Assembly (NCBI GenBank): GCA_024280215.1
Contig: JAJRQO010000033.1
Location: 1 to 52,763 of the forward strand
DNA from: Candidatus Zixiibacteriota bacterium
GTDB lineage: Bacteria > Zixibacteria > MSB-5A5 > GN15 > FEB-12
Reading direction: 5' to 3'
Length of the DNA stretch: 52,763 bases
In this document: in pieces, positions 8,532 to 52,763 of the stretch
How the letters are laid out: the number at the start of each line of letters is the position of its first letter
How positions within the stretch are numbered: the first letter of the stretch is position 1
Notes under the pieces: model-generated
Told to the model about the DNA's origin: nothing
The model's database searches: none
Seen by the model: the letters and a program-made list of their open reading frames with translations, nothing else
Program-made: the position numbers and the translations under genes

Positions 8532-8645
8532 TTATTGCCATATCTCATAGTTTTGTGTGCATACTTCAATAAGACAATTTGATGTAGCAAGATTAGATGC
8601 AAATGCTAATCCTAAAAACAATAATAGAAAATAGAATCTTATCAT
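8532..8645 (-). CDS. Short exported peptide, 37 aa
   Basis: ATG at 8645 follows a clear GGAGAGG ribosome-binding site. The product MIRFYFLLLFLGLAFASNLA begins with a near-perfect signal peptide with cleavage likely after AFA. That leaves about 21 residues with two cysteines, ending in Trp-Gln. It starts 37 bases after the stop of the lipoprotein gene at 8683 on the same strand, so it is likely cotranscribed. Function unknown. The strength of the ribosome-binding site and signal peptide argue that it is real despite its length. Confidence 0.5.
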   Translation of the reverse strand: MIRFYFLLLFLGLAFASNLATSNCLIEVCTQNYEIWQ

Positions 8646-8682
8646 ATTTAATATCCTCTCCAATGATTTTAATAAAAATTAT

Positions 8683-9039
8683 TTATTTTGTAAGTTCAAA
8701 ATTAAAATCTGTAATAATTAAATTATCGTATGGTAAGTCTAATGATTTCATTTTAGTTACATAATTTTCCTTCCTGCAATAGATATTCACCACACCAGTT
8801 GTACCAGGATAGATAAAATACAATCCTTCTGAATTTGAATATGTGTTAATAGTTGATGATAGTGTGTCTCCAAAGATTACTTCTGCGGAATCAATAGCTA
8901 AACCAGTTATTGAGTCGATAACTTTCCCTGATATTCTATCCAAGGGAAAAGGTTCATGTGATGTAGTATCATTACAATTTAGTAGGATAAAATAGAATAA
9001 TAGTCCAGTTGCTAGTAAATGTTTTTTTTGGTTTTTCAA
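8683..9039 (-). CDS. Lipoprotein with carboxypeptidase-regulatory-like domain
   Basis: The N-terminus has a lipoprotein signal (MKNQKKHLLATGLLFYFILL) with lipobox LLNC at about residues 20-23. Residues 36-118 resemble the carboxypeptidase D regulatory-like (CarboxypepD_reg, beta-sandwich) domain: ISGKVIDSITGLAIDSAEV, then SNSEGLYFI. Such domains occur alone in envelope proteins of the Bacteroidetes/Zixibacteria type. The protein is probably anchored in the outer membrane. There is no enzymatic motif. Confidence 0.7.
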   Translation of the reverse strand: MKNQKKHLLATGLLFYFILLNCNDTTSHEPFPLDRISGKVIDSITGLAIDSAEVIFGDTLSSTINTYSNSEGLYFIYPGTTGVVNIYCRKENYVTKMKSLDLPYDNLIITDFNFELTK

Positions 9040-27554: not shown

Positions 27555-29759
27555 TTAAGAAATATCTATTTTATTCAAACGCAGGGAGTTTGAAACAACA
27601 AATAAAGAAGAAAAAGACATAGCGGCAGCGGCCACCATTGGGGATAAAGTCAGTCCAAAAATCGGATAAAACAGTCCTGCCGCAATTGGAATTGCTAAAA
27701 TATTATAAATAAATGCCCAAAAGAGGTTTTGCTTAATGACTCGTAATGTTTGTTTGGAAAGTACGAAAAGTTTTTCAACTGAATGTAGTTCAGTTTTAAC
27801 CAAAACAATATCAGATGATTCAATTGCTATATCTGTTCCCGAACCAATAGCAATTCCAACATCTGCTTTTGCGAGAGCGGGGGCATCATTAATACCATCA
27901 CCAATCATGGCAATCGTGTAGCCTGCTTTTTGAAGCGATGTGACTATCATCTGTTTTTGATCAGGTTTTACTTCTGCTTCAAAGCTATCCAAACCAATCG
28001 AGCGTGCCACTCCACCAGCAGTTTTACGACTATCACCAGAAAGCATGGTAATCTCTTTGACAATATTTTTAAGATTACTTATGACCTCTTTTGCTTCAGA
28101 ACGAATTTTATCAGCAAGAGTTATGATACCAATAATATGATTATCCATTGCAGCATAGACGATAGTCCGACCTTTGTCCATTTCCAATTCAGCTGTTTGT
28201 TCAAGAGAAGAAATATCAATTTTATTTTGCACCATCAATCTTTTGTTACCGATTAAAATTTCTCTCTCGTTATAGTTACCCATAATGCCAGCACCAGGCA
28301 GAGATTCGATATTTTTTATTTTCACAAATTCGATATTTTCTCTTTTGGCTTGCTTGACTATTGCCTTGGCAACAGGATGTTCCGATTGTATTTCTGCTGA
28401 TGCGACAATTTTAAGAAGTTCATCTGCAAGTTTTTCAGAAGTCGCTTGTACTAAAGTTACTTCAAGTTGCCCATGCGTAAGAGTTCCTGTTTTATCAAAA
28501 ATAATAGAATCGACTTTCGTTACTTTTTCAAGTACATCTCCGCCTCGAATGATAATCCCTTCTTTGGCAGCTCTGCCAGTACCTGCTAAAATTGCGGTAG
28601 GAGTTGCAAGTCCTAATGAACAGGGACAGGCAATAATAAGCACTGAAATAACCGAACGGATAAACATCGGGTCATTTGGTGCAAATATGTACCACGAAAT
28701 CGCAGTAATAAGTGCAATCCCTAAAACTATCGGGACAAAGACTGCCGAGACTTTATCAGCAAGTTGTTGGACTGGAGCTTTTTTGGATTGTGCATCTGAG
28801 ACTAATCGAATAATAGATGATAGGAATGTTTTTTCTCCCGATGCAGTTACTTTCATTTGAAATGGAATGTTACCATTAAGTGAACCACCATAGACTAAGT
28901 CTTGCTCTTTTTTCTCAACAGGTAATGACTCGCCAGTCAACATCGACTCATCGATAAAGGGAGCATTTTCTAAGATAGTTCCATCGGCAGGGATTCGTTC
29001 ACCAGGGCGGACAAGCAGAGTCATCCCCTCTTTGACAACTGAAGTATCGATTTCAATTTCGACACCATTAATCAGAGCGAGTGCTTTTGTAGGCGTAAGG
29101 TTAAGCAGTGCTTTGATTGCTTCGCCTGCTTTTCCTTTTGACTTCGCTTCTAAATACCGACCAAGCAGAATAAGAGTGATAATCATCGCACCAGATTCAA
29201 AATAGAGCAGATCGGTTCCACCATTTATAATTTTATAGAGAACATACATTGACCAAAAAAATGCAGAGAGAGAACCCATCGCTATCAAGCTATTCATATT
29301 AGCACGAAGATGTTTGGTCTGTTTGAGAGCGTCAAATATTATAGACTGTCCAGAATAAAATATGACTACTCCAGAAAGAACTGCCTGAATAATTGCATTA
29401 TAAAGAGTTCCAAAGAGAACCTGCCCAAAAAGCATCGGAGACATGGCGATAACCATCAATGGAAGTGAAAGTCCTAATGAAATCGTGAATGCTTCTTTTG
29501 CCGACTTTGCTTCTTTTTCGTTGGCGGCTAAAATATCAGGGCGACCGATAGTCGCTTTGTAGCCTAACTCTTCAATTTCTTTGATAATCTTTTCGGATGA
29601 GATTTGATTGTTAAATTCAACTGTTGCAGAGTGAATCGCGAGGTTCACCCGGCACTCATCGACACCCTCAAGTTTGTTGATACCTTTTTCAACGATAGCT
29701 ACACAGCTTGCACAGTGCATACCTTCGATTTTCAGAGTGAGTTCTTTGGAATTTGCCAT
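27555..29759 (-). CDS. copA: Copper-translocating P1B-type ATPase
   Basis: Exports Cu(I) across the inner membrane using ATP. It has a single N-terminal heavy-metal domain with GMHCASC (C16, C19). Eight transmembrane segments include the ion-binding ACPCSLGLATP at about 380. The phosphorylation site is DKTGTLTHG (about 421), with the class-specific SEHPVAKAI, the TGES actuator motif (MLTGESLPVEK) and the hinge GDGINDAPALAKAD at about 621. The usual length is about 730-800. The last two helices (SFSSLFVVSNSLRLN, with M and S residues) fit the P1B-1 copper type. No chaperone or CueR/CsoR gene is adjacent. Confidence 0.93.
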   Translation of the reverse strand: MANSKELTLKIEGMHCASCVAIVEKGINKLEGVDECRVNLAIHSATVEFNNQISSEKIIKEIEELGYKATIGRPDILAANEKEAKSAKEAFTISLGLSLPLMVIAMSPMLFGQVLFGTLYNAIIQAVLSGVVIFYSGQSIIFDALKQTKHLRANMNSLIAMGSLSAFFWSMYVLYKIINGGTDLLYFESGAMIITLILLGRYLEAKSKGKAGEAIKALLNLTPTKALALINGVEIEIDTSVVKEGMTLLVRPGERIPADGTILENAPFIDESMLTGESLPVEKKEQDLVYGGSLNGNIPFQMKVTASGEKTFLSSIIRLVSDAQSKKAPVQQLADKVSAVFVPIVLGIALITAISWYIFAPNDPMFIRSVISVLIIACPCSLGLATPTAILAGTGRAAKEGIIIRGGDVLEKVTKVDSIIFDKTGTLTHGQLEVTLVQATSEKLADELLKIVASAEIQSEHPVAKAIVKQAKRENIEFVKIKNIESLPGAGIMGNYNEREILIGNKRLMVQNKIDISSLEQTAELEMDKGRTIVYAAMDNHIIGIITLADKIRSEAKEVISNLKNIVKEITMLSGDSRKTAGGVARSIGLDSFEAEVKPDQKQMIVTSLQKAGYTIAMIGDGINDAPALAKADVGIAIGSGTDIAIESSDIVLVKTELHSVEKLFVLSKQTLRVIKQNLFWAFIYNILAIPIAAGLFYPIFGLTLSPMVAAAAMSFSSLFVVSNSLRLNKIDIS

Positions 29760-39240: not shown

Positions 39241-40422
39241 ATGAAATGTTTAAAACTATTTATAGTTCTTCAACTATTTATTGTTCTTAATGTCATGGCT
39301 CAGTTTGATGATGCAAGTTGGAATGTTGTCTATCAAGAAAATTTTGATTCGAATTTTGTTGCTGTTGATGGACAAAAATTTAGTACAGACAACTGGTTGA
39401 TGATTCAGCTTCATAACGGAGGGACTATCAATATTACCAACGGTTACGCTCAACTCAACGCCGATGATTTTCAGATGGCGGGATTAATTCGTAGTACGAA
39501 TAGTTTACCGTCTGAATATAAACTCCGAACAAAAATTGGGTATATCAATTATGATTTAACAAACTATGAGCAAGCTGATTATGACAATCCTGCTTTTAAC
39601 ACTCATGGTGGGAACTATGAAAATGGGATGTATTTTCTGACAGTAACTAATGACACCTGTGTTGGTAATGAGTGTGCTGAATTATGGTGGCATTATCATC
39701 GCAAAATGGTAATTGATATTGACAATCATATCAATTCTGGCGGAGGAGAAACATTTCATCCGACCTATATGGTCTACATGGCACCTGAAACAAACTCGGG
39801 TGGGAACCTTCTCAGAACCTGGACTGGTAATGCGTGGGATTCATCCGCATGGAATTGGAATGTCGCCTATACTTACAGTGCGAATAGTTGGTACTATGCC
39901 GAACTTGAAAAACGAGCTGGGTTTATAACGCTACGACTCTATGATGAAAATAAAAATATTATTGAAGAAACTACCCCTGTGAGTTTTGATAAAGTATTTG
40001 CCATTAGTAACCCCTTGGAGTTTTTGTACGTAGGCGAACCACATACCGATGACTACGAAGGGAATGTTCGTATCGATGAAATCACTTTATTGAGTTATGA
40101 CTCTTTATCTACATCTGTCGGTGATGAAGCGAACGACTTGCCCGTTAGTTTTGTAATTTCACAAAACTATCCAAACCCATTTAACCCATCGACAACGATA
40201 GAGTATGCTTTACCAACTCGGACAAATATAAAAATCGAAATTTATAATCTACTTGGTCAAAATGTAAGAACGCTTGTAAACAAAGAGCAGTTAGCAGGTA
40301 ATCATAATGTAACATGGGATGGTAATAATAATTCTGGTCAAATGGTGACGAGTGGAATATATTTATATAAACTTACGACGCATGATTTTTCGAGTAGTAA
40401 GAAGATGTTATTGTTGAAATAA
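39241..40422 (+). CDS. Secreted protein with C-terminal Por/FlgD-Ig sorting domain
   Basis: ATG 39241 starts a signal peptide (MKCLKLFIVLQLFIVLNVMA, cleaved before QFDDASW). Residues about 25-290 form a concanavalin/LamG-like jelly-roll (NWLMIQLHNGGTINITNGYA; WWHYHRKMVIDID) of uncertain binding. After a linker, residues 305-393 are a FlgD-like Ig and type-A sorting domain: ISQNYPNPFNPSTTIEYALP, IEIYNLLGQNVRTLV, SGIYLYKL. These tails direct cargo to type IX-like secretion in FCB bacteria. No T9SS machinery is in the window. It is likely cotranscribed with the VOC gene 20 bases on. Confidence 0.85.
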   Translation: MKCLKLFIVLQLFIVLNVMAQFDDASWNVVYQENFDSNFVAVDGQKFSTDNWLMIQLHNGGTINITNGYAQLNADDFQMAGLIRSTNSLPSEYKLRTKIGYINYDLTNYEQADYDNPAFNTHGGNYENGMYFLTVTNDTCVGNECAELWWHYHRKMVIDIDNHINSGGGETFHPTYMVYMAPETNSGGNLLRTWTGNAWDSSAWNWNVAYTYSANSWYYAELEKRAGFITLRLYDENKNIIEETTPVSFDKVFAISNPLEFLYVGEPHTDDYEGNVRIDEITLLSYDSLSTSVGDEANDLPVSFVISQNYPNPFNPSTTIEYALPTRTNIKIEIYNLLGQNVRTLVNKEQLAGNHNVTWDGNNNSGQMVTSGIYLYKLTTHDFSSSKKMLLLK

Positions 40423-40444
40423 AAATTTGTTTATAGGAGTCAGT

Positions 40445-40828
40445 ATGTCTGAAAAAAACAATATTGGAACTGTCGGGTGGATTGATCTTACTGTACCAGA
40501 TGCGACAGCAGTGAGGGATTTTTACAAAACTGTGGTAGGTTGGAATCATTCCGATGTTTCGATGGGGGAGTATAGCGATTTTTGTATGATACCACCATCA
40601 TCGGAGAATCCTGTAAGTGGAATTTGTTACGCTCGGGGGAACAACAAAGATTTGCCACCTGTTTGGATGATTTATATTGTAGTTGAAGATTTAGAAAAAT
40701 CTTTAGCGAGTGTGAAAGAACTTGGAGGGGAGCTAACTTCAGAGATAAAAACAATTGCTGGACAGGGGAAATATTGTATTATCAAAGACCCTGCTGGAGC
40801 AATTTCGGCGTTGTATCAGGAAGAATAG
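40445..40828 (+). CDS. VOC (glyoxalase-like) family protein
   Basis: ATG 40445 has TAGGAG eight bases upstream; the frame continues upstream to 40427 but is weaker. The 127-residue product shows the vicinal-oxygen-chelate half-barrel: WIDLTVPDATAVRDFYKTVV and CIIKDPAGAISALYQ. Members bind divalent metals and act on diverse small substrates. The usual metal-site residues are not clear, so activity is uncertain. Confidence 0.82.
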   Translation: MSEKNNIGTVGWIDLTVPDATAVRDFYKTVVGWNHSDVSMGEYSDFCMIPPSSENPVSGICYARGNNKDLPPVWMIYIVVEDLEKSLASVKELGGELTSEIKTIAGQGKYCIIKDPAGAISALYQEE

Positions 40829-40885
40829 CAGAGAGATAGAATAATTAAGACACTCTAATGGGTATGCTGGTGAATTTATGTTTGT

Positions 40886-40932
40886 ATTTCAAGACCCTTC
40901 GACTTCGCTCAGGGTGACTTGAAAGACAAACA
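40886..40932. repeat. Partial core of the MITE-like element
   Basis: TTTCAAGACCCTTCGACTTC continues to CGCTCAGGGTGACTTGAAAG. It is the palindromic core seen in the elements at 8089 and 36220, without the TGTTGAAAAA ends. Confidence 0.7.
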
Positions 40933-40935
40933 CTC

Positions 40936-41823
40936 TTAGGCTACTTCAGTTTTTGGTTTGTCTACGATTTTTTGGCATTCTTCAGAACAACATTTGTTAA
41001 GACGTTCTTCGCATGCTAAACATGAGACGTAAAATAAATTACATACTACATTGCGACAGTTGCGTAATAAATCTGACGATGTACCGCATAGATGACAATT
41101 TGATACTGGTTCGCCCTCTGAGTTCATCGGAGAGACCATCCGTTTGTCAAAGACAAAGCATTTACCTTCCCATACAGATTGCTGATGTTCAATACCAAAT
41201 TGTATAATGCCTTGGTTGAGTTGGGAGACATCTTCGATGCCTTGTTCTTTTACAAAGGCGGTTGCTTTTTCGCACCTGACCCCGCCAGTGCAGTACATGA
41301 CAACTTTTTTATTTTTTAAATCATCCAAATTGACTTTATCAGTGAACTCTCGAAATGTTTGTAGGTTGACATGAGTGGCACCTTTAAACCGTCCGACTTC
41401 AAATTCATAATCATTGCGAGTGTCCAAAAGAACAACATTTTCTTTTAAGTTTCCATCGCTGTCGTATAGTTCTAAGAACTCTTCTGTAGTGAGATGTTTG
41501 CCAGTGTTTTTCAAATCAACATCATAATCAAAACGTACAATTTCATTTTTGACTTTTATTTTCATTTTTCTAAAAGGGTGTTCGCTGTAGGTTTCTTCTT
41601 CTTTAAAAAAGAGGTCTTTAAAATTCGGAATATCTTTTAGTCTTTTTCGTAGTGCATCAGTGTTTTCTCTGTTTGCTGATACTGAACCGTTGATGCCTTC
41701 TTGGCTGATTAAAATTGTCCCACGGAAATGTTCATGTATGCAAAACTCTTTGAGGTCAATTAGCAATTGCTGAGGGTCTTTAATTTCTGCGTATTTGTAA
41801 AATCCTAAAACTATCATTGTCAT
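40936..41823 (-). CDS. trhO: tRNA uridine(34) hydroxylase (rhodanese family)
   Basis: TrhO/YceA-type protein of 295 residues. The N-terminal domain (FYKYAEIKDPQQLLIDLKEF, GTILISQEGINGSVS) is followed by a rhodanese domain at about 120-215 with LLDTRNDYEFEVGRF and the catalytic Cys178 in MYCTGGVRCEKA. The C-terminal 45 residues hold eight or so cysteines (NCHLCG ... CNLFY ... CLACEERLNKCCSEEC), a zinc-binding tail typical of the family. The family forms 5-hydroxyuridine at tRNA position 34, using O2 and prephenate-independent chemistry. Confidence 0.9.
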   Translation of the reverse strand: MTMIVLGFYKYAEIKDPQQLLIDLKEFCIHEHFRGTILISQEGINGSVSANRENTDALRKRLKDIPNFKDLFFKEEETYSEHPFRKMKIKVKNEIVRFDYDVDLKNTGKHLTTEEFLELYDSDGNLKENVVLLDTRNDYEFEVGRFKGATHVNLQTFREFTDKVNLDDLKNKKVVMYCTGGVRCEKATAFVKEQGIEDVSQLNQGIIQFGIEHQQSVWEGKCFVFDKRMVSPMNSEGEPVSNCHLCGTSSDLLRNCRNVVCNLFYVSCLACEERLNKCCSEECQKIVDKPKTEVA

Positions 41824-41923
41824 TCTTTCATTATCAGTTAACTATTAAATTGAGACCTATATTATACATGATAAGTTGAAAATATACAAATACAAGATTG
41901 TCTTTTATAGTACAGAAAGTGGG

Positions 41924-43438
41924 TTAGTAGCTTTTTTCTTCGATACCTTTGATAAGGTCTTGAAAGATAAAGTGATGGAATGGCAAAAACATATACCAGT
42001 AGATATGTCCAAAAAAAGTGTGGGTATCGTAGTAGGCGGTGACTACTAATTTTTGTTTTTGTCCTTCGTTGACGATTTTGAATTCAAGCCAGGCTTTGCC
42101 AGGGATAAGCATTTCTGCTCGAAGCAGGAGGCGGCTATTTTGTTCGATTGCTTCTACCCGCCAGAAATCGATAACATCGTTGGCTTTGAGAGGGAAATAA
42201 TTTTTTCGACCACGTTGTGTTCCTACCCCCGTGAGGGTTCTATCAATTGCCCCTCTTAACCTCCACATCCAGCTTCCTTCAAACCAACCTTCACGACCAC
42301 CGATTTCGCAGATAGAATAAAAGAGAGAATTCGGTTTTTTTAAACTTTGAATTGAATAATTTGTAGAGTAAGTCGTTTCAAATTTGAGTTCCTTTAATTT
42401 GAGGGCAAGTTCATGGGCGGGTGGGAACGCATCAGACCAACGTGTGTACACTTTGTCCTGCTCTTCGCGAGTCATGGCACGAAGGGTCGACTCTTTAAAT
42501 GAGATAGTTTCAAAGGGGACATATTTTTTTATTGAATCATCCTGACAGACAACCTCATTTTTTAAACCTTGTATCAAGCATTGTGAAATCGCAAATGGAA
42601 CTGGAGTAATCATACTAACGCCATAGGCGTAAAGTGAAAGAGTTGGAATGGTGAAGGGAATGAAGATAACTTTTTTTTCAAGAATTGAGGCGGTAGTTTT
42701 GAGCATCTCAAGATAGGTAAGAATATCTTTGCCACCAATGTCAAATTGTTTTGATGCTGTTTCGGGAACTTCTAAAACACCAACGAGGTATTTGATGACA
42801 TCACGCACAGAAATCGGCTGGCATCTATTTTTTGTCCAATGGGGGGTGATGATAAAAGGAAGACGTTTGACAAGATGGTGCAGGATTTCATAGGAGGCAG
42901 AGCCTGAACCGATGATGATAGCGGCGTTTAAAATTGTAACGGGGACGGTACCTTTTTTGAGTTCTTCAGATACTTCGATACGGTTTCTTAGGTGTGATGA
43001 AAGGTTAGATGTTTTATCGCCAAGCCCACCGAGGTAGATGATTCGTTTGAGTCTATTTTTTTCAGCAGCCTTACGAAAATTTTGAGCGGCTTGTATATCG
43101 GCATCTTCAAATTCTTCTAATCCAAGTTGCATTGAATGAATTAGGTAATAGGCGGTGTCGATACCTACAAGAGCGTCGTTTAGTTGGTTGATGTCGAGCG
43201 CATCGGCTTCGATAACTTCGGTGTCGGGCCAGTCAGTTTTGTAAACATCTTCGTCGCCACGAACCATAAGGCGAATTTTGTACCCACGTGCAATAAGTTC
43301 GGGGATTAATCGTCCACCAATATAGCCTGATGCTCCTGTGATGAGTATCGTACCTAAATCAGAAATAGGTTTGGTCGGCAGGTCTTTGCAACGAAGTTCA
43401 TTTGGGGCAAAGGTTTTTGTTTTGAATTGTTCTGGCAT
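41924..43438 (-). CDS. SDR/NmrA-like epimerase fused to DUF2867
   Basis: ATG 43438 is chosen; the frame reaches 43492. The N-terminal Rossmann domain (about 27-290 from this start) has TILITGASGYIGGRLIPELI and conserved YLIHSM. The C-terminal half, about 350-500, is DUF2867: WFEGSWMWRLRGAIDRTLTG, RGRKNYFPL, DVIDFWRVEAIE, and LPFHHFIFQDLIKGIE. The fusion is widespread, and the role (possibly lipid or redox related) is unknown. It is encoded alone, 101 bases from trhO. Confidence 0.83.
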   Translation of the reverse strand: MPEQFKTKTFAPNELRCKDLPTKPISDLGTILITGASGYIGGRLIPELIARGYKIRLMVRGDEDVYKTDWPDTEVIEADALDINQLNDALVGIDTAYYLIHSMQLGLEEFEDADIQAAQNFRKAAEKNRLKRIIYLGGLGDKTSNLSSHLRNRIEVSEELKKGTVPVTILNAAIIIGSGSASYEILHHLVKRLPFIITPHWTKNRCQPISVRDVIKYLVGVLEVPETASKQFDIGGKDILTYLEMLKTTASILEKKVIFIPFTIPTLSLYAYGVSMITPVPFAISQCLIQGLKNEVVCQDDSIKKYVPFETISFKESTLRAMTREEQDKVYTRWSDAFPPAHELALKLKELKFETTYSTNYSIQSLKKPNSLFYSICEIGGREGWFEGSWMWRLRGAIDRTLTGVGTQRGRKNYFPLKANDVIDFWRVEAIEQNSRLLLRAEMLIPGKAWLEFKIVNEGQKQKLVVTAYYDTHTFFGHIYWYMFLPFHHFIFQDLIKGIEEKSY

Positions 43439-43583
43439 AAAGTTTTTTTCTTTTGTGTAATGATGAGTATATGATTCAAAAGATGACCTCAAATGTCAAG
43501 TTTAATCTCTTTTGATGTAGACAAAGACTTGACAAATTTTTGAAATATGTAATCTTTGCAGTAACTTAAAAATAGAGATGATT

Positions 43584-43931
43584 ATGATATTACAAATATT
43601 TGGTACGAAAAAATGTAAGGATTCGCAAAAAGCGGTACGTTTTTTTAAAGAGCGACGGATTAGTTTTCAATTTATTGATTTAAAAGAAAAAGCGGTCAGT
43701 CAGGGTGAGCTTAATTCTATAAAGAAGAATTATTATATTGAAGATATTATAGACAAATATTCAAAAACGTATGAAGATTTGAATTTGGAATATATCCAGC
43801 ATGATGTTGAAGAGATGTTATTGGAGCATCCTCTTCTGTTTGTCACGCCAATTCTTCGTTCTGATTTTGGAGCAATTGTCGGATATGATCAAGAGATGTG
43901 GAAAGAGCTTGCCGGTAAACTTAAAAAATAA
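43584..43931 (+). CDS. ArsC/Spx-family thioredoxin-fold protein
   Basis: This 115-residue protein starts at ATG 43584 (six bases after another ATG). Its N-terminus MILQIFGTKKCKDSQKAVRF has the family's single Cys followed by Ser at the position of the second, as in ArsC-type reductases. Then FFKERRISFQFIDLK and a TPILRSD motif near 90. Predicted small redox protein; arsenate reduction is not certain because no other ars gene is near. Its stop meets the stop of the convergent minus-strand gene. Confidence 0.75.
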   Translation: MILQIFGTKKCKDSQKAVRFFKERRISFQFIDLKEKAVSQGELNSIKKNYYIEDIIDKYSKTYEDLNLEYIQHDVEEMLLEHPLLFVTPILRSDFGAIVGYDQEMWKELAGKLKK

Positions 43932-44189
43932 TCAGAGACACCAAAGATTTTGCTCTAAGAAGCTGAGCATGTCAGAACGATTGGGAAACATGCTGTTTTG
44001 ATTGCTACGTTTTTCTTTTCGCTTTTCACTCAATGCGAGACCATCAATGATAAGGGTAGGGGATTCGACCTTTTTGTCAAATTCTGAATATTCTGCCAAG
44101 ACACCAGAGTCATCGAGATACTGCTTCACCGAGTCGCGTGCTTCTTTTTGTTTTGGGTCGTTGCTTGAAAAAATCAGTCCGATTTGCAT
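43932..44189 (-). CDS. Small thioredoxin-fold-like protein, 85 aa
   Basis: The start MQIGLIFSSND and the later SPTLIIDGLALSEK, with a cis-Pro-like pattern, suggest a glutaredoxin/thioredoxin-like fold, but no CxxC is present. GAGTATCAT precedes the start. It converges without gap on the ArsC-like gene. No family is named; a redox partner or decayed glutaredoxin is possible. Confidence 0.5.
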   Translation of the reverse strand: MQIGLIFSSNDPKQKEARDSVKQYLDDSGVLAEYSEFDKKVESPTLIIDGLALSEKRKEKRSNQNSMFPNRSDMLSFLEQNLWCL

Positions 44190-44352
44190 GATGATACTCC
44201 TTTTATTTCTCTCTGTATAATCTCAAGTTTAGTAATTAGAGTCAACAAGAACTATTATAAATATACAATATAAGTTAAAATTCTTGACAATCATTTCTGA
44301 GCTGTTTAATGTATAGGGAAGAATCTATTATAAATATATACAAGGAGAAACT

Positions 44353-44931
44353 ATGCATACCTTACCAGAATTACCATATCCAAAAGATGCCCTTCAGCCT
44401 CATATTTCCGAGGAGACAATTAATTATCATTATGGCAAACATCATAATGCCTATGTGACTAACTTGAACAAACTTATTGAAGGAACCGAGTTTGCGAGTA
44501 AGTCGCTTGAGGATATTATCAAAAGTTCAGAGGGTGGAATTTTTAACAATGCGGCACAGGTGTATAATCATACGTTTTATTGGAATTGTTTGTCACCAAA
44601 TGGTGGTGGTGTAGCATCGGGTCTGTTGGCAAAAGCTCTCATCGCACAGTTTGGTTCGCTTGAAAAATTTAGAGAAAAGTTTACGCAGACGGCGGCGACT
44701 CTGTTTGGTGCGGGCTGGTGCTGGCTTGTGAAAAAAGAGGATGGCACTTTGGATATTATGCAGACTTCAAATGCGGGTTGTCCATTGACCTATGGATGTA
44801 TGCCATTGTTGACAGTTGATGTGTGGGAGCATGCCTATTATGTAGATTACCGCAATGCGAGACCTGAGTATCTGAACCATTTTTGGTCGCTTGTCAATTG
44901 GGATTTTGCTAACAAAAATTTTGCGGGGTAG
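44353..44931 (+). CDS. sodB: Iron/manganese superoxide dismutase
   Basis: Metal ligands fall at H26, H73, D156 and H160, in YHYGKHHNAY, NHTFYWNCLSP and DVWEHAYYVDYRNARPEYL. Gln69 (AAQVYNHTFYW) and the lack of a Mn-type Gln146 region favour the iron form. The length of 192 is standard. ACAAGGAGAAAC gives a good ribosome-binding site. A possible promoter starts TTGACA at 44284 with a poor -10. It converts superoxide to oxygen and peroxide in the cytosol. The lipoprotein gene follows five bases on. Confidence 0.95.
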   Translation: MHTLPELPYPKDALQPHISEETINYHYGKHHNAYVTNLNKLIEGTEFASKSLEDIIKSSEGGIFNNAAQVYNHTFYWNCLSPNGGGVASGLLAKALIAQFGSLEKFREKFTQTAATLFGAGWCWLVKKEDGTLDIMQTSNAGCPLTYGCMPLLTVDVWEHAYYVDYRNARPEYLNHFWSLVNWDFANKNFAG

Positions 44932-44935
44932 GGAA

Positions 44936-45325
44936 ATGAAAAATATGATATTACTCTTCTTTCTTTGCTTTATTGCTTTAGGTTGTGCAATGAAACAGGT
45001 ACTTCCTAAAGAAATTGCAAAAGGTTCTATTGTTCAAAACGAAAGAGAATATTATATAGTTGTACCATCGAATTTTCAGACATCTAAGGGTGAAGTTCTA
45101 ATAACCTATCAAGGTTCAATTGAAAAATACCATTTATTTAGATCATGGGAGAAGATGGGTGTGAAGGATCATACTTCGTTTTTTGCGTTACGAAGAAATG
45201 ATTGTGTCATAGAAGATGAAGTCTTACTTACAAAAGATGAAGAATATATTAAAAAATGTAGTTTCCGACATGGGGTGCATGTTGAAGGAAAAATAGTTGT
45301 TAGTAAATGTGAAACGATTCATTAA
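44936..45325 (+). CDS. Small lipoprotein
   Basis: ATG 44936 has TAGGGAA upstream; the frame upstream overlaps sodB but lacks a start signal. The signal sequence MKNMILLFFLCFIALGCAMK has lipobox ALGC (Cys17). The mature part of about 110 residues has LITYQGSIEKYHLF and a few Cys (DC, KC, KC) but no known domain. The end (VSKCETIH) is polar. Probably outer-membrane-anchored; cotranscribed with sodB. Confidence 0.7.
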   Translation: MKNMILLFFLCFIALGCAMKQVLPKEIAKGSIVQNEREYYIVVPSNFQTSKGEVLITYQGSIEKYHLFRSWEKMGVKDHTSFFALRRNDCVIEDEVLLTKDEEYIKKCSFRHGVHVEGKIVVSKCETIH

Positions 45326-45474
45326 ATTTGTCTTTATAATAAAGTGAAAAAACTGGATTCCTGTGTTCGCAGGAAAGGGGTTGCGGAGAGTTTGAAAGCC
45401 TACTAATAGACTGTAAAAGTTTGTCGGGTTTCTTTCAATTATATTTTTTGGAATCGGAACACCGACCTACAAAC

Positions 45475-45512
45475 AAAAAAAAGCAGTAGTGTGATTTTTC
45501 ACTCTACTGCTT
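45475..45512 (-). terminator. norZ terminator
   Basis: On the minus strand, AAGCAGTAGAGTGA, a short A-rich loop, then TCACACTACTGCTT, is followed by TTTTTTG. It is 148 bases after the norZ stop. Confidence 0.75.
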
Positions 45513-45620
45513 CTGTATAAACAACAACATAATAAGATGAAACTAAAACAATATGTGGGGGCAGACGATGACATCGTAACTACAGGTACGTCTTTCGCCT
45601 GCTGAGTATATATAAATAAG

Positions 45621-45641
45621 TCGGAACCACAGGGGTTCCGA
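45621..45641. repeat. Hairpin repeat with CCTAC tail
   Basis: TCGGAACC acagg GGTTCCGA followed by CCTACAAAA. The same core and tail are seen at 9479-9503. It lies 20 bases after the norZ stop on the minus strand. Confidence 0.6.
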
Positions 45642-45659
45642 CCTACAAAATACTAACAA

Positions 45660-47897
45660 CTATTTTTTATCTTTATTCTCTAGTGAATGTCCTGTTGAAA
45701 GTCCAAAGATAAAGAGAACGATTACTAAAATGCCAATCGCAAAGATTGTATCACCAGGAGCGCGCATCCACTTGAGCGTCGTAATTAAGTCCGAGTATAA
45801 AAACTCAGCCGAACGTGCATACCAGTATCCTTTGTCAACGGAAGCATAGGTCTGCAAAAATCCGATAGGCAACAAACTGATAAGAACCATCAAACTAAGC
45901 CCTATGTTGATTGCCCAAAAACCAAACTTGATAACCTTTTGATTCCATACCTGTCTGACATAGAGGACACGCAAACAGAATAACATTAAGCCGAGTCCAA
46001 GCATACCATAAACACCAAAGAGAGCAGTGTGGGCATGAACAGCAGTTGTGTTAAGACCTTGCATGTAGTAAAGAGCGATAGGTGGATTAATCATAAATCC
46101 GAAGAGCCCCGCACCAATCATATTCCAGAATGCGACAGCAACAAAGAAGTAAATCGGCCATTTATATTTTTCGACCCATTTGGTTGCTTGTGAGAGACGG
46201 ATATTTTCCCATACTTCAAAACCAATAATTGTCAACGGGGCAACCTCGAGTGCTGAGAAAACAGAACCGAGTGCCATGATAGCTGTTGGGGTTCCTGCGA
46301 AATAAAGATGATGCAGGGTTCCGACAATACCACCAGTTAAGAAGATCGTCGTTGAAAACAGTACTGCGTTGGTTGCACTTTTCATTCGAAGCAGAGATAA
46401 TTTTGTAAAGAGTAAAGCAATCACAGCGGTTGCAAATACTTCAAAGAAGCCTTCAACCCAAAGATGAATAACCCACCAACGCCAATATTCGACAATTGAT
46501 ATATGAGTAGTTTTTCCCCACATGAGACCAGCCCCATAAAAACCGCCGATAGCAACGATAGAGATTAAGAACATAGTCAAGAGGGATTTGTCAGCACCAT
46601 TTTTTCGGATGCCAGTAAGTATACATCTTCCTGTTAAGAAGACCCAAATGATTAAGCCAGCAAGCAAAGCGATTTGCCAGATACGTCCAAGGTCAACATA
46701 TTCATAGCCTTGATGTCCGAAGTAGAACCACATATCACCAGCAGTATCAAAGTAACCCATGACAGAAAGCCATTCGCCAGTCATGGAACCAAGCACTACA
46801 ACAACTAAAGCACCGAGTAAAGTGAGTACTCCAAGTCTTTGGAACTTTGGTTCATAACCAGAGATAACAGGTGCGATAAAGAGTCCTGCCGCTAACCATG
46901 AGGTAGCAATCCAGAAAATTCCGAGCTGGGTATGCCAAGTACGAGCAACCGAGTACGGTAAAAAGTCGGCAAGAGGGATGCCATAAAATGCGTGACCTTC
47001 AACACCATAGTGAGCGATGATAACACCGAGTGTCATTTGTATTAAAAAGAGTGCAGCCGCTACCCAGAAATAAAGTACCGACGCTTTCTGAGATGGTGTT
47101 GGTGAAAAACCAATGAGAGGGTCTTCTTTGGGAAGATTTTCAACGATTGATTCTTCTTCTTTGTTTCTGACATAGTAAAAGACTAAAAGAGAAATACCAA
47201 AGAGAAGAGTAAGGATTGAAAAACCAGTCCAGATGAGTGAATCCGATGTTGGTTTATTGTCAATCAAAGGTTCATGTGGCCAGTTGTTCGTGTATGAGAT
47301 ATTATCATCAACACGATGTGCCGCTGCCGCCCAAGCAGACCAGAAGAAAAATGCAGCCATCTGTTCGATTTTTGCGGGGTCATCAATTGCTCCTGCAGGA
47401 ATTGCAAATTGTTCATTGCCATTTTTGAAAATATCAATGTAGTAAGCTACATTTGATTTGAATGCCAATAACCTAACAGGGTCTAAGACCAGTTTGTCGG
47501 TTGAAGGATTATAGGTGTTGCTGTTTAAAAGAGATTTTAAGCGTTGCCTAAGAGCCGCTTGTTGTTCTTCATTTAACGCATCGTAAGAAAGATCAAAATC
47601 AACTCTTGCGTATTCATTAAGAATGAAGACACATTCGCGATGCAACCATTCGGCTGTCCAGTCAGGTGCGACATAGGAACCATGTCCCCAAAGCGAGCCG
47701 ACTTCCATGCCACCCATTGCTTGCCAAACATTCTGACCTGAGGAGATTCCACCAGCTGGAACAATTGTTTCACCAGTAGTGGTAATTACCATATTTGGAA
47801 TAGGTGGTTTTTCGGTATAAATTTTAAAACCAGACCATCCAAGAATAGTAAACGAGATTACAACTACGGCTATAAACCCAACCCATAGTTTTTTCAT
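45660..47897 (-). CDS. norZ: Quinol-dependent nitric oxide reductase
   Basis: Single-subunit qNOR of 745 residues reducing 2 NO to N2O with quinol, in the inner membrane. The N-terminus has a membrane helix followed by the NorC-like periplasmic domain without a CxxCH heme site (GISSGQNVWQAMGGMEVGSL, GHGSYVAPDWTAEWLHRE). About 14 helices of the NorB-like catalytic core follow, with HTQLGIFWIATSWLAAG, HLWVEGFFEVFATAVIALLF and HTALFGVYGMLGLGLML, which hold heme and FeB ligands. AAAGGATTC precedes the ATG. The Rrf2 regulator lies 49 bases upstream on the same strand. Confidence 0.93.
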   Translation of the reverse strand: MKKLWVGFIAVVVISFTILGWSGFKIYTEKPPIPNMVITTTGETIVPAGGISSGQNVWQAMGGMEVGSLWGHGSYVAPDWTAEWLHRECVFILNEYARVDFDLSYDALNEEQQAALRQRLKSLLNSNTYNPSTDKLVLDPVRLLAFKSNVAYYIDIFKNGNEQFAIPAGAIDDPAKIEQMAAFFFWSAWAAAAHRVDDNISYTNNWPHEPLIDNKPTSDSLIWTGFSILTLLFGISLLVFYYVRNKEEESIVENLPKEDPLIGFSPTPSQKASVLYFWVAAALFLIQMTLGVIIAHYGVEGHAFYGIPLADFLPYSVARTWHTQLGIFWIATSWLAAGLFIAPVISGYEPKFQRLGVLTLLGALVVVVLGSMTGEWLSVMGYFDTAGDMWFYFGHQGYEYVDLGRIWQIALLAGLIIWVFLTGRCILTGIRKNGADKSLLTMFLISIVAIGGFYGAGLMWGKTTHISIVEYWRWWVIHLWVEGFFEVFATAVIALLFTKLSLLRMKSATNAVLFSTTIFLTGGIVGTLHHLYFAGTPTAIMALGSVFSALEVAPLTIIGFEVWENIRLSQATKWVEKYKWPIYFFVAVAFWNMIGAGLFGFMINPPIALYYMQGLNTTAVHAHTALFGVYGMLGLGLMLFCLRVLYVRQVWNQKVIKFGFWAINIGLSLMVLISLLPIGFLQTYASVDKGYWYARSAEFLYSDLITTLKWMRAPGDTIFAIGILVIVLFIFGLSTGHSLENKDKK

Positions 47898-47946
47898 ACG
47901 TCTGAATCCTTTCTTAAAAAATTATTTAAAAAGTTAGTTATATGTT

Positions 47947-48357
47947 TCATAAAGAAATATCTTTGTCCGCTATATTTTTGATTGTTGTCGTTTTGAGAAA
48001 GTTTAAATAGTCCGAACGGATTTTGTCCCACTTGTTATGTACAGCACAAGATTTTTTGCATGAACAAGAGCCTTGTCCTAAAAAGCAACCGTTGAGTTTT
48101 TTGAGTGAGTCGATTGGTTCAACGATATTGTAAATTGAAATTTTTGATGCTGGTTTTGCAAGACGAAATCCACCATTGTAGCCTTTTACAGATTCTAAAA
48201 TGCCTTTTGCTGCTAATTTATTAAGCAGTTTTCCGAGATAATTTTTAGGGGCGTTGATATTTTCTGCGATTTGATTGGTGCCTGCGTAGCTATTTTTATC
48301 AATTGAAGCTAAGTAAACCAAAGCAAGAGTCGCATGAACACCAGTTTTTGAAATCAT
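47947..48357 (-). CDS. Rrf2-family regulator (NsrR-like)
   Basis: The 136-residue protein has the Rrf2 winged helix (TNQIAENINAPKNYLGKLLNKL, read in parts, then KGILESVKGYNGGFRLA). It keeps four cysteines, C91, C98, C100 and C104, in CFLGQGSCSCKKSC; three of them fit an iron-sulfur cluster site as in NsrR. Family knowledge and the adjacent norZ suggest NO-sensing repression of norZ. No palindromic operator is obvious. AGAGG precedes the ATG at 48357. Confidence 0.8.
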   Translation of the reverse strand: MISKTGVHATLALVYLASIDKNSYAGTNQIAENINAPKNYLGKLLNKLAAKGILESVKGYNGGFRLAKPASKISIYNIVEPIDSLKKLNGCFLGQGSCSCKKSCAVHNKWDKIRSDYLNFLKTTTIKNIADKDISL

Positions 48358-48478
48358 TGTTGTATAACCTCTAATCGCATGTCATTATCCTAATAAACGT
48401 AGAGTATAGTAATCAATAATCAGGTCAAAAAAATGACTTAAATCAAGATAAAATTATTACGGGGTAAGTAGCTAATAT

Positions 48479-49531
48479 TTATGATATTTTAAGAGAAAAA
48501 TCGGATTTCGCTTCAACAGAACCAATACAAGCAACGAGCAGATTGTTTTCTTTTAACTCTTTTTCAAATGCGTCAGAATTTGAAGCTGGGATTGAGATAA
48601 AAAGTCCACCTGAAGTTTGCGGGTCAAAGAGTACGTGTATGATATTTTCATCGACAGAATTTTCTATGATGTACTTACCGTCAACAAAATCACGGTTAGC
48701 GTTGGCTCCGCCAGGAATCATACCAAGTTTAGCAAATTCTACTGCATCTTGAAGAAGAGGTAATTTATCGGTGTTGATACGAATTGTAACACCTGAGCCA
48801 TCTGCCATTTCGTAGGCATGTCCCATTAGTCCGTAGCCTGTTATGTCGGTGACAGAGTTGGGGTTATGTTTGACCATGATTTCGGCGGCAGCTTTATTGA
48901 GTTCAACCATCTGGTTGGTGACAATGTCTATCAGTTCATCTGAGACAGCGTTTCTTTTGATTGCGGTGGTTATAAGTCCAGTCCCGAGTTTTTTGGTCAG
49001 GTATATTTTATCGCCGATTTGGGCGTTGGAGTTGGAAAGTACTTTTGCTGGGTCGATTAAGCCTGTGACCGAGACACCGTATTTGAGTTCTTTATCTTTT
49101 ATAGAATGTCCACCGACAACAACCGCACCCGCTTCTTCAATTTTTTCTGTTCCTCCACGTAATATATCAGCAAGGATTGATGCTGGCATACTCGTAGGGA
49201 ACCCGACAATACTCATTGCAGTGATTGGTTTTCCGCCCATAGCGTAGACATCGGAAAGGGCATTGGCAGCTGCAATTCTACCAAAATTGTATGGATCATC
49301 AACTATAGGTGGAAAAAAATCAAGCGTCTGCACTAATGCTTTTTTATCGCAAATTTTGAATACTCCAGCGTCATCTGCTTTATTAAAACCAACTAACAGA
49401 TTTGGATGGTTTGATTGTGGTAGGTCTTTGAGAGCTTCAGCCAAAAACTTTGGCGGTAATTTGGAAGCTCAACCAGCACAACTTACTTCGGCAGTAAGTT
49501 TTATCTCGGTTTCTTTGCGTTTATCATCCAT
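48479..49531 (-). CDS. selD: Selenophosphate synthase, selenocysteine-containing
   Basis: The frame after the in-frame UGA is long (to 48479), and the reading frame continues upstream through UGA to ATG 49531, giving 350 residues. Residues 12-30 read LTAEVSCAGUASKLPPKFL, with Sec21 and Lys24 at the positions of the active-site Cys17/Lys20 of E. coli SelD. The rest is a complete SelD (QTLDFFPPIVDDPYNFGRIA, AANALSDVYAMGGKP, VVVGGHSIKDKELKYGVSVT, TDITGYGLMGHA, FDPQTSGGLFISIP). It makes selenophosphate from ATP and selenide. It lies downstream of a divergent promoter; no strong ribosome-binding site is seen. Confidence 0.92.
49432..49471 (-). promoter_or_regulatory. SECIS-like hairpin with UGA (Sec) codon of selD
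   Basis: The UGA is at 49471-49469. On the minus strand the following mRNA forms a lower stem GAGCUUC (49470-49464) with GAAGCUC (49438-49432), and an apical stem GCCAAA (49454-49449) with UUUGGC (49445-49440) around a GUU loop. The loop G is about 20 nt after the UGA, within the known bacterial SECIS range. It should bind SelB for Sec insertion. Confidence 0.85.
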
Positions 49532-49592
49532 GGGAACCAAAATACAGTGATTCAGTGTAATAGGCAATAGGAATCTTCTGATTTTATAAGTA

Positions 49593-49621
49593 TTGACAAA
49601 AATCGTCATTATAGGTATACT
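49593..49621 (+). promoter_or_regulatory. Sigma-70-type promoter of the isocitrate dehydrogenase gene
   Basis: TTGACA (49593-49598), a 17-bp spacer and TATACT (49616-49621). It lies 44 bases upstream of the ATG at 49665, the best promoter match in the window. Confidence 0.8.
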
Positions 49622-49664
49622 TTCGCCCCAATAACAATTATGTCATGCGATAGGATATAAATTT

Positions 49665-50675
49665 ATGGCACATAAAGTAACCCTGATACCAGGTGATGGT
49701 ATCGGACCAGAAATTACAGAATCGGTTGTTCGAGTAATCGAAGCGGCTGGTGTTGATATTGAATGGGATCGCCAGATGGCTGGAATTCCAGCCGTACAAG
49801 AGTATGGTGTATCTGTTCCTGACCAATGTTTAGATTCAATAAAAGAAAATAAAGTAGCTCTCAAGGGACCACTTACGACATTGGTTGGCAAAGGTTTTCG
49901 TTCTGCCAATGTGACTTTGCGTCGTAAACTTGATTTGTATGTAAATCTTCGTCCTGTAAAAACTATCGGTGGTGTTCCGAGTCGGTTTGATAAAGTTGAT
50001 TTGGTAATTGTTCGTGAAAATACTGAAGATTTGTATTCTGGGATTGAAAATGTTATCTCTCCAGGTGTAACACAGGCTATCAAAGTTGTGACTAAAGAAG
50101 CGTCCGATAATATTGCCCGTTATGCTTTTGAATATGCCAAAGCAAATGGACGGAAAAAAATCACGCTGGTGCATAAAGCAAATATTATGAAAATATCCGA
50201 CGGACTCTTTTTGAAATCATTTGAAGAAATTTCAGAAGAGTATCCTGAGATTAAAGCAGAAGATAAAATAGTAGACGCACTCTGTATGAATTTAGTTATT
50301 GACCCGACCCAGTTTGATATGTTATTATTAGGTAACATGTTTGGTGACATTGTGTCAGATTTAGCTGCTGGATTAGTTGGCGGGCTTGGAGTGGTACCAG
50401 GTGCCAATCTTGGTAATGACTACGCGGTTTTTGAAGCAGTACATGGTTCGGCTCCTGATATTGCTGGGAAGAACCTTGCCAATCCTACAGCTCTGATATT
50501 TTCGGCACTCATGATGCTTCGACATCTTAAAGAAGAAGAAGCAGCAACTAAAATTTGGAAATCTATTGTAGTCACCCTTGCTATGGGGCATCACTTAACA
50601 AAAGATTTAGGCGGAACTCTTTCTACTACTGAATATACCGACGAGCTTGTAAAAGAAATTTCAAGCCGTACTTAA
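49665..50675 (+). CDS. icd: NAD-dependent isocitrate/isopropylmalate-dehydrogenase family enzyme
   Basis: Complete length of 336. The start KVTLIPGDGIGPEITESV and the substrate loop LKGPLTTLVGKGFRSANVTL are typical of short NAD-dependent isocitrate dehydrogenases. Catalytic Tyr and Lys lie in RENTEDLYSGIEN and LVHKANIMKISDGLF. The signature is NMFGDIVSDLAAGLVGGLGV. The C-terminus has HGSAPDIAGKNLANPTALI. It is closer to the IDH/homoisocitrate group than to LeuB. Substrate is most likely isocitrate (oxidative decarboxylation to 2-oxoglutarate). Transcribed from its own promoter. Confidence 0.88.
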   Translation: MAHKVTLIPGDGIGPEITESVVRVIEAAGVDIEWDRQMAGIPAVQEYGVSVPDQCLDSIKENKVALKGPLTTLVGKGFRSANVTLRRKLDLYVNLRPVKTIGGVPSRFDKVDLVIVRENTEDLYSGIENVISPGVTQAIKVVTKEASDNIARYAFEYAKANGRKKITLVHKANIMKISDGLFLKSFEEISEEYPEIKAEDKIVDALCMNLVIDPTQFDMLLLGNMFGDIVSDLAAGLVGGLGVVPGANLGNDYAVFEAVHGSAPDIAGKNLANPTALIFSALMMLRHLKEEEAATKIWKSIVVTLAMGHHLTKDLGGTLSTTEYTDELVKEISSRT

Positions 50676-50690
50676 AAAAATTATCAATCT

Positions 50691-50712
50691 GAGCAGAGGT
50701 CATGCTCTGCTC
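50691..50712 (+). terminator. Hairpin between isocitrate dehydrogenase and dockerin genes
   Basis: GAGCAGAG gtcatg CTCTGCTC, a perfect eight-bp stem, 16 bases after the stop and 14 before the next ATG. No T-run follows, so it could be an attenuator-like or mRNA-stabilising hairpin instead of a terminator. Confidence 0.45.
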
Positions 50713-50725
50713 GGGAAATTAAAAA

Positions 50726-51400
50726 ATGAAAAAAATCAGAACTCTTATTCTTCTATTTGTAGTTGCATCTCATGCCTACGCATTGGACTATCAAACTGCT
50801 GTTTATCCTGATGCGAACAGTATTGATGTTGTAGCTATATCTGTTGCTGATACGGTAACGGTAACTTTTAGAAATGTTGCGACTGAATCAATTGCTGAAT
50901 TTTTTCTGACAGTTCATTCTGATGATTCTGTTTTTGTCTTGACAACTGTTGTCGATGGCAATCTAAGTCCGAGCTATACAACAGAGGTGACCGATGGGAC
51001 TATCTATCCGACTCAACTTTCAACTGCTTTGCTAATTGGGGCAATAAATGATTCGGTTCAAATCAAATTTTATACGACAAATCTTGAAAATATGCACATC
51101 ACTTTTTGTGGTATGCACCCAGATGGTTTTTTTGGTGTGACAGAAACTCAAGAAGTTTTACCTGTTTGTTGTGTGGGGATTCGTGGAAATATTGATGGGG
51201 ATGCTGCGGATATTTTAGACATTGGTGATTTAGTTTATTTTATAGATTATTCGTTTGGTATTCCGACTGGACCTGCTCCTATTTGTTTTGAGGAAGCTGA
51301 TGTTGACGCATCTGGTCAGCTTGATATTGCAGATATTATACATATTGTCAATTATATGTTTTCAGTCGAGGGTAATATCCCGCCTGCCGATTGTCCGTAG
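50726..51400 (+). CDS. Secreted dockerin-repeat protein
   Basis: The signal peptide is MKKIRTLILLFVVASHAYA, cleaved before LDYQ. Residues about 25-145 form an Ig-like/cohesin-like beta domain (DTVTVTFRNVATESIAEFFL). Residues 150-220 hold two dockerin-type repeats (RGNIDGDAADILDIGDLVYF, then IDYSF; EADVDASGQLDIADIIHIVN, then YMF), each with Ca-binding DxDxD-like loops, flanked by CC and C residues. The CCVGIRGN opening and the final C-P resemble Zixibacteria secreted proteins. It may bind other surface proteins; the partner is unknown. Confidence 0.78.
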   Translation: MKKIRTLILLFVVASHAYALDYQTAVYPDANSIDVVAISVADTVTVTFRNVATESIAEFFLTVHSDDSVFVLTTVVDGNLSPSYTTEVTDGTIYPTQLSTALLIGAINDSVQIKFYTTNLENMHITFCGMHPDGFFGVTETQEVLPVCCVGIRGNIDGDAADILDIGDLVYFIDYSFGIPTGPAPICFEEADVDASGQLDIADIIHIVNYMFSVEGNIPPADCP

Positions 51401-51404
51401 TCTT

Positions 51405-51893
51405 TTAAAATGCGACGTATGAGACGAGGAGTTTGATATTGTCATATGTATTAGTATTCTTTACTTCAATATAACTTAAGCTAATTTGAAAATTATTCGA
51501 AAACATGTATCCTCCTCCTATATAAAATGCATCTTTCGGATAGTAACCATAACCCAATTTTGTAAAATATGATTTTTTTTCAGCTTTAAAAAAGTGAAAC
51601 CAACTAAAGCCAGAATGCTGTTCCAAAAACAGTCCATTATTAAAATAAGAAAAATCCAAAGCTCTGTCCAACACAATGATGTCTTTGTTGTTTATTCCAT
51701 ATCCTAAATTAAACCTATAGGTAAATGCTTTATTATAGTGAGATAAAGTATTTCTAATTGTAGCTCGATAATGTGTGAAGCCTATACCATTACTCAGGAC
51801 AAAGCCTTTACGGTTGCCGTCGAAGGCTGAAACATTTTGTGTCGGAAGAAAAACTGTTAGGAGTATAATGAGTGTGAGTATATGTTTTTTCAA
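51405..51893 (-). CDS. Barrel-like outer-membrane family protein, copy 1
   Basis: A 162-residue protein with a signal peptide (MKKHILTLIILLTVFLPTQN, cut near VSAFDG). Alternating hydrophobic strands follow (FTYRFNLGYGINNKDIIVLD, FHFFKAEKKSYFTKLGYGYY, GGGYMFSNNFQISLSYIEV), ending LLVSYVAF with the terminal aromatic typical of outer-membrane barrels. About eight strands are predicted. It shares a near-identical N-terminal third with the copy upstream (51909-52385). No known family; a porin-like, adhesin or OmpA-like barrel is inferred. Confidence 0.65.
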   Translation of the reverse strand: MKKHILTLIILLTVFLPTQNVSAFDGNRKGFVLSNGIGFTHYRATIRNTLSHYNKAFTYRFNLGYGINNKDIIVLDRALDFSYFNNGLFLEQHSGFSWFHFFKAEKKSYFTKLGYGYYPKDAFYIGGGYMFSNNFQISLSYIEVKNTNTYDNIKLLVSYVAF

Positions 51894-51911
51894 TCGTATT
51901 CTCTTTTCTTA
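51792..51911 (-). repeat. 120-bp perfect direct repeat, copy at barrel gene 1
   Basis: Identical base for base to 52284-52403, covering the last bases of the upstream gene's stop and spacer, the 5' leader and about 100 bases of coding DNA. Confidence 0.9.
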
Positions 51912-52385
51912 AAAGGCGACGTATGAGACGAGGAGTTGTAAATGATCACTTGCCCATTCTTCAGTAAAATGCATATATGTAACTCCAAGTTGTACATTAT
52001 TTGAGAACATGTAACCTCCACCAATATATAAACCATTAGGATAATAAGCCAACCCTACTTTTGTGAAGAAGGACTTTTTTTGTTGTTTGAAAAAATGAAA
52101 CCAGCTCACGCCTACATACTTTTCAAATATAACGGTTCCATTTTTGATGAAATGATTCATTCCTCTATCTATAACTAAGATATTTTTGTTGTTAATTCCA
52201 TAGCCTATAGTAGATCCTAAAGTATATGCTGGGTTATCTCGTTTGTTTGAAGTAAAGGTTGTAACTCCAACTCCAACTCCTCCACTCAGGACAAAGCCTT
52301 TACGGTTGCCGTCGAAGGCTGAAACATTTTGTGTCGGAAGAAAAACTGTTAGGAGTATAATGAGTGTGAGTATATGTTTTTTCAA
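51909..52385 (-). CDS. Barrel-like outer-membrane family protein, copy 2
   Basis: 158 residues. The first 34 residues (from MKKHILTLIILLTVFLPTQN to the FVLS motif) are identical to copy 1, but the rest is only about 40 percent similar by eye (GYGINNKNILVIDRGMN, WFHFFKQQKKSFFTKVGLAY, GGGYMFSNNVQLGVTYMHF, LLVSYVAF end). It is a tandem paralogue, 15 bases from copy 1. The DNA of the shared start is 120 bp identical. Confidence 0.65.
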   Translation of the reverse strand: MKKHILTLIILLTVFLPTQNVSAFDGNRKGFVLSGGVGVGVTTFTSNKRDNPAYTLGSTIGYGINNKNILVIDRGMNHFIKNGTVIFEKYVGVSWFHFFKQQKKSFFTKVGLAYYPNGLYIGGGYMFSNNVQLGVTYMHFTEEWASDHLQLLVSYVAF

Positions 52386-52403
52386 TCGTATTCTCTTTTC
52401 TTA
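52284..52403 (-). repeat. 120-bp perfect direct repeat, copy at barrel gene 2
   Basis: Same sequence as 51792-51911. The identity stops abruptly at both ends, pointing to recent duplication or gene conversion. Confidence 0.9.
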
Positions 52404-52668
52404 TAAAGCGACGTAGGATAGAACGAGAGTGATACTATTAACATTTTCATAATTTGAAATTCTCTTATATGTAAAACCAAGTTGTACATTGTTAGAAAAC
52501 ATATATCCTCCTCCAAAAAGTAAGGCTTCTGGATTATTCCTAATGCCAACCCTCATAAAAAATGATTTCTTCTGTGCTGAAAAATAATGAGACCAACTTA
52601 GGCCAACAGTTTGAAATGTTCTATCAATATCAAAAAATATGATTCTTCTATCATAATTTAAAACATTA
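52401..52668 (-). pseudogene. Barrel-like family protein, copy 3, 5' truncated by IS
   Basis: About 89 codons remain with the family's C-terminal pattern (SWSHYFSAQKKSFFMRVGIR, GGGYMFSNNVQLGFTYKRIS, end SYVAL). The native signal peptide and strands are missing. Codons before 52668 belong to the IS terminal repeat. A GTG at 52694 in the IS gives an open frame of 97 codons, but no export signal. Confidence 0.7.
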
Positions 52669-52763
52669 TGGACTTCCCCCGCAAAAACGGACACGGAGTT
52701 AAGTATGTTTTGTCATCACTTCAAATTGAGCTGGACTTTTGTATCCTAAGCTCGAATGACGAC
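52669..52763 (-). mobile_element. 3' end of an IS3-family insertion sequence
   Basis: The terminal inverted repeat starts TGGACTTCCCCCGCAAAAAC at 52669, then GGACA, the counterpart of the repeat at 131. The element continues past the right edge of the window. Same orientation as the left IS. Confidence 0.8.
52699..52763 (-). CDS. IS3-family transposase OrfB, C-terminal fragment
   Basis: The last 20 codons of OrfB, RHSSLGYKSPAQFEVMTKHT and a TAA at 52699-52701. The HSSLGY-SPAQFE ending is diagnostic of the IS3/rve integrase domain (near the DDE region's C-terminal end). The first part of the gene lies outside the window. Confidence 0.85.
   Translation of the reverse strand, partial: RHSSLGYKSPAQFEVMTKHT

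Follow-up and report, generated by a model that had tools for sequence, protein, structure and literature searches.

Selenocysteine in SelD of an uncultured Zixiibacteriota bacterium is very probably decoded at an internal UGA codon with an RNA hairpin

The selD locus and its reading frame

The window, by which we mean the whole analyzed stretch of 52,763 nucleotides, was assigned to Candidatus Zixiibacteriota by means of named public contigs. It contains on the reverse strand a gene encoding selenide water dikinase (SelD), the frame of which is interrupted close to its start by a UGA codon, and the following features were defined there:

49531–48479, minus strand: selD (selenide water dikinase, Sec21), 350 residues from ATG 49531 to a TAA stop, with TGA read as Sec
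49469–49471, minus strand: Sec21 codon (UGA), corresponding to the catalytic Cys/Sec position
49440–49454, minus strand: apical SECIS hairpin, GCCAAA (49454–49449), loop GUU (49448–49446), UUUGGC (49445–49440)
49432–49470, minus strand: span bounded by the lower stem that folding predicts for the window, GAGCUUC (49470–49464) with GAAGCUC (49438–49432)

Directly 3′ of selD lies a gene for a relative of NsrR and IscR from the Rrf2 family of regulators (47947–48357, minus strand). It is followed on the same strand (45660–47897) by a gene for a protein of 745 residues, which contains NorB cytochrome c-like and COX1 domains and is probably a quinol nitric oxide reductase.

The N-terminus of the readthrough product is MDDKRKETEIKLTAEVSCAGUASK, in which SCAGUASK corresponds to residues 17–24. 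The translation thus bore out the earlier note on this DNA, according to which readthrough at 49469–49471 recovers both the active-site motif and a start at ATG 49531. The product matched the NCBIfam equivalog TIGR00476 (selD) with a score of 378.6 bits (cut-off 125), covering positions 1–309 of the 311 in the profile, and the Pfam domains AIRS and AIRS_C were both found in it. The G-[C/U]-x-x-K motif, which consists of the catalytic Cys or Sec and a conserved Lys three residues on, was present as SCAGUASK and aligned with AGCGCK of the solved bacterial SelD of the E. coli type (PDB 3u0o). When no readthrough was allowed, mechanical calling of open reading frames with table 11 returned a 321-residue frame beginning at TTG 49444, shortly 3′ of the UGA, from which the active site was missing. 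This outcome agrees with two further statements of the note, namely that the conceptual gene following the UGA lacks the active site, and that standard gene calling truncates selD.

Conservation of the UGA codon

SelD was searched for in the window's own genome and in 40 related genomes, and an orthologue was present in 36 (the own genome and 35 relatives). The SelD match contained a TGA in all 36 of them. In the fetched loci, which were aligned, the TGA occupied the same codon, and the sequence 5′ of it, M[DE]DKR...IKLTAEVSCAG, which begins near the start codon, was conserved. The alignment to Sec- and Cys-containing SelD proteins placed the UGA in the catalytic Cys/Sec column, as the catalytic Cys of 3u0o, which aligned at length (residues 7–326, E 1.8e-70), fell on the UGA codon, where the Zixiibacteriota protein would have Sec. 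The presence of the UGA in 36 of 36 genomes, together with the conservation of the residues 5′ of it, argues against both a stop and a sequencing error at this codon.

The two alternatives just named can be considered further in light of these data. If the UGA were a true stop, the gene would be decayed, or translation would restart at TTG 49444 and yield a SelD devoid of its active-site residue, and the 321-residue frame found by the mechanical ORF caller is compatible with such a restart. In the assembly of one related MAG, selD (L019 and L048) carries an additional in-frame TAA, which may be an error or a sign of decay; it shows that some copies are not intact and could also be taken as favoring a true stop. 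However, neither decay nor a downstream start would preserve the UGA and the codons preceding it across the order, which makes this explanation very unlikely. Relatives with a stop at this codon and a start after it were looked for, and the closest ones kept the UGA and the upstream residues, with no restart. The other alternative is that sequencing or assembly has put TGA in place of a Cys codon (TGC or TGT). A single wrong base would be enough, and Cys-containing SelD does occur in other phyla (Cys in 26 of the 106 SelD sequences compared). Because TGA was present at the same codon in independent assemblies of the 36 genomes and in the named public contigs, the chance of such an error is negligible. 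On the evidence of the sequences, it is highly probable that the gene is functional and that its product is a selenocysteine-containing SelD with Sec at the catalytic position, with the decoding of the UGA aided by a SECIS hairpin.

The hairpin 3′ of the UGA codon

Folding of the RNA around the UGA predicted the structure that the earlier note had described, with GAGCUUC/GAAGCUC as the outer helix and GCCAAA-GUU-UUUGGC as the inner one, and with an energy of −14.5 kcal/mol; the fold energies obtained for the element ranged from −13.7 to −14.5 kcal/mol. However, the fold of the single sequence was not significant (z −1.16), as 32 of 200 shuffled sequences folded equally well. Because of this unremarkable result, comparison across relatives was relied on instead.

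The apical hairpin consists of a 6-bp stem closed by the 3-nt GUU loop and is located 20 nt from the UGA. At least five of its six pairs were of the Watson–Crick type in 38 of 39 non-redundant sequences, and the loop was GUU, GGU or GGC in all 39. Watson–Crick pairing was observed in 95% of the cells of the apical stem, as compared with 45% in a null of synonymous codons (z 19) and 83% in a null of codons permuted within the same column (z 8.6), although these codon-preserving nulls ignore relatedness and their z values should not be read as probabilities. When synonymous codons were drawn from usage, the number of sequences keeping the stem had a mean of 1.8 and a maximum of 7, while with same-residue codons permuted among species the mean was 27.5 and the maximum 35; in both cases 0 of 5000 reached 38. 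When the same geometry was slid along the 38 genes that were long enough, it was found at the SECIS position in 37, and at the next best place in 3. Pair counting in 24 sequences, in which 97.2% of the cells were paired, detected changes on both sides at four of the six apical pairs, and the compensatory changes were often synonymous, such as CCA with TTG and CCG with CTG. As judged from these comparisons, the apical hairpin is under selection, of which the synonymous covariation is a clean demonstration. This covariation also argues against the UGA being a true stop.

The apical hairpin was compared with the bacterial SECIS (bSECIS) model, which comprises an apical loop of 3–9 nt with G in the first two loop positions, an upper stem of 4–16 bp, a distance of 16–37 nt from the UGA, and an energy of −7.5 kcal/mol or lower (PMC13188914). 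The bacterial SECIS check proposed in the earlier note had a positive outcome, because the hairpin of selD, with its 3-nt loop starting with GU, 6-bp upper stem, 20-nt spacing and energy of −13.7 kcal/mol, fits this model and shows compensatory changes in relatives. It differs in that the outer helix is variable and that the scan of positions 40000–52763 against Rfam gave no match at E values up to 1.

The lower stem behaved differently from the apical one. Folding predicted the GAGCUUC/GAAGCUC helix for the window and for some of the relatives. Across relatives it was only slightly above the codon-preserving nulls (z 2.0 and 1.6), and its middle pairs often failed. By these comparisons, conservation of the lower stem in excess of the coding constraint is not clear, and to count it as an element of a conserved SECIS would go too far. 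Hence, the full two-part element claimed in the earlier note is overstated and supported by half: both stems are predicted and the apical one is conserved, while the lower one remains near the level explained by coding.

Selenocysteine machinery and other UGA-containing genes

The earlier note had implied a selA/selB/selC system, the absence of which would have spoken against selenocysteine, and all three genes were present in the genome:

Contig 40, 51820–53151: selA, 532 bits, over the cut-off
Contig 40, 53178–55037: selB, 322 bits, over the cut-off, with the SelB winged-helix domain PF09107
Contig 40, 40198–40290: tRNA-Sec (selC), 63.7 bits with a gathering score of 47, reported by ARAGORN as tRNA-SeC with anticodon UCA

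The selA and selB matches adjoin, with about 27 bases between them in match coordinates, and tRNA-Sec is located on the same contig. The presence of the three genes is another argument against a true stop in selD. The family search of the genome gave no match for selenouridine synthase.

Family searches of the genome, the tally of which is a lower bound, identified at least two UGA-containing redox genes besides selD, the search for such genes having been proposed in the earlier note:

Contig 38, 29007–29375: Sec-peroxiredoxin (PKNSTPGU) with an in-frame UGA, hairpin geometry as in selD, loop GGA
Contig 27, 8626–8904, minus strand: thioredoxin-like protein with UxWC (L149); the in-frame UGA is followed by a hairpin in agreement with the bSECIS model

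Of the peroxiredoxin matches, the ten with the best scores came from ten different genomes; one TGA was present in every one of them, and several had a hairpin with selD-like geometry. The Sec-peroxiredoxin gene adjoins a second peroxiredoxin gene (L137 and L155; contig 38, 28998–29429). In the thioredoxin-like gene, the product of which also gave weak TPR-like matches, the hairpin is located 23 nt from the UGA and has a 4-nt loop. Both kinds of selenoprotein are included in a recent prokaryotic inventory (PMC13188914). Formate dehydrogenase was expected in its Sec form, and the matches found had no internal stop, while the genome family searches gave no match for the FlpD, SelW-like, TusA and SelU families. 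A scan of every open frame of the window that holds a UGA, judged by eye, likewise revealed no second likely selenoprotein.

These data also bear on the explanation that UGA is an ordinary sense codon in this lineage, for example for Trp or Gly. UGA is reassigned in some uncultured lineages, which lends the explanation some general plausibility. However, among the window frames with an internal UGA only SelD resembled, by eye, a real gene spanning it, an internal UGA was absent from most of the genome's family matches, and the UGAs that were found occupy catalytic Cys positions and are followed by a hairpin. A sense codon is therefore exceedingly unlikely, and decoding of the UGA as selenocysteine is the preferred reading.

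The elements known as bSECIS are usually described as little alike. The geometry with exactly 20 nt between the UGA and a 6-bp apical stem with a 3-nt, G-first loop was common to selD and Sec-peroxiredoxin genes in several relatives, and the thioredoxin-like gene and some peroxiredoxins departed from it. It is conceivable, if rather doubtful, that SelB of this lineage recognizes this one fixed geometry.

Proposed mechanism and relation to known SelD proteins

From what is known of these protein families, SelB carrying Sec-tRNA-Sec (UCA) would bind the apical hairpin 20 nt 3′ of the UGA during translation and deliver Sec at the UGA in place of termination. The resulting SelD would make selenophosphate from selenide and ATP, which SelA would use to produce more Sec-tRNA-Sec. 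Because SelA needs the selenophosphate made by SelD, SelD would depend on its own product.

Passages of Mariotti et al. describe SelD as often being a selenoprotein itself, and a passage of one survey gives the share of Sec-containing forms as 19% of prokaryotic SelDs. That Sec-SelD is established in several phyla, as the earlier note had stated, was also evident here, as Sec was present in many of the nearest matches from Clostridia, Planctomycetota and Thermodesulfobacteriota. The SelDs of these groups and others share with the Zixiibacteriota protein the family (TIGR00476), the position of Sec, and a UGA followed by a short hairpin. In contrast to them, the Zixiibacteriota SelDs, all of which have Sec, formed a clade of their own in a quick tree (SH-aLRT 99), and their hairpin has its own sequence. 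By sequence, the Zixiibacteriota Sec-SelD is confidently identified as an ordinary case of a well-known family and is of low surprise. At the level of sequence, the data are evidence that selenocysteine is used across Candidatus Zixiibacteriota. Among the papers searched, a single one contains both “Zixibacteria” and “selenocysteine”, and in the passages found there the phylum name is used for reconstructed MAGs only. The main importance of the observation lies in correct gene annotation, as plain ORF calling cuts off the active site of selD.

A second SelD was observed in one genome of the same order (G036), which also carries Sec-SelD. This second protein (L154, 904–3144) has Cys and is encoded in one frame with an N-terminal cysteine desulfurase-like part (NifS/IscS); NifS-SelD fusions are reported in a passage of an earlier study (PMC4561486).
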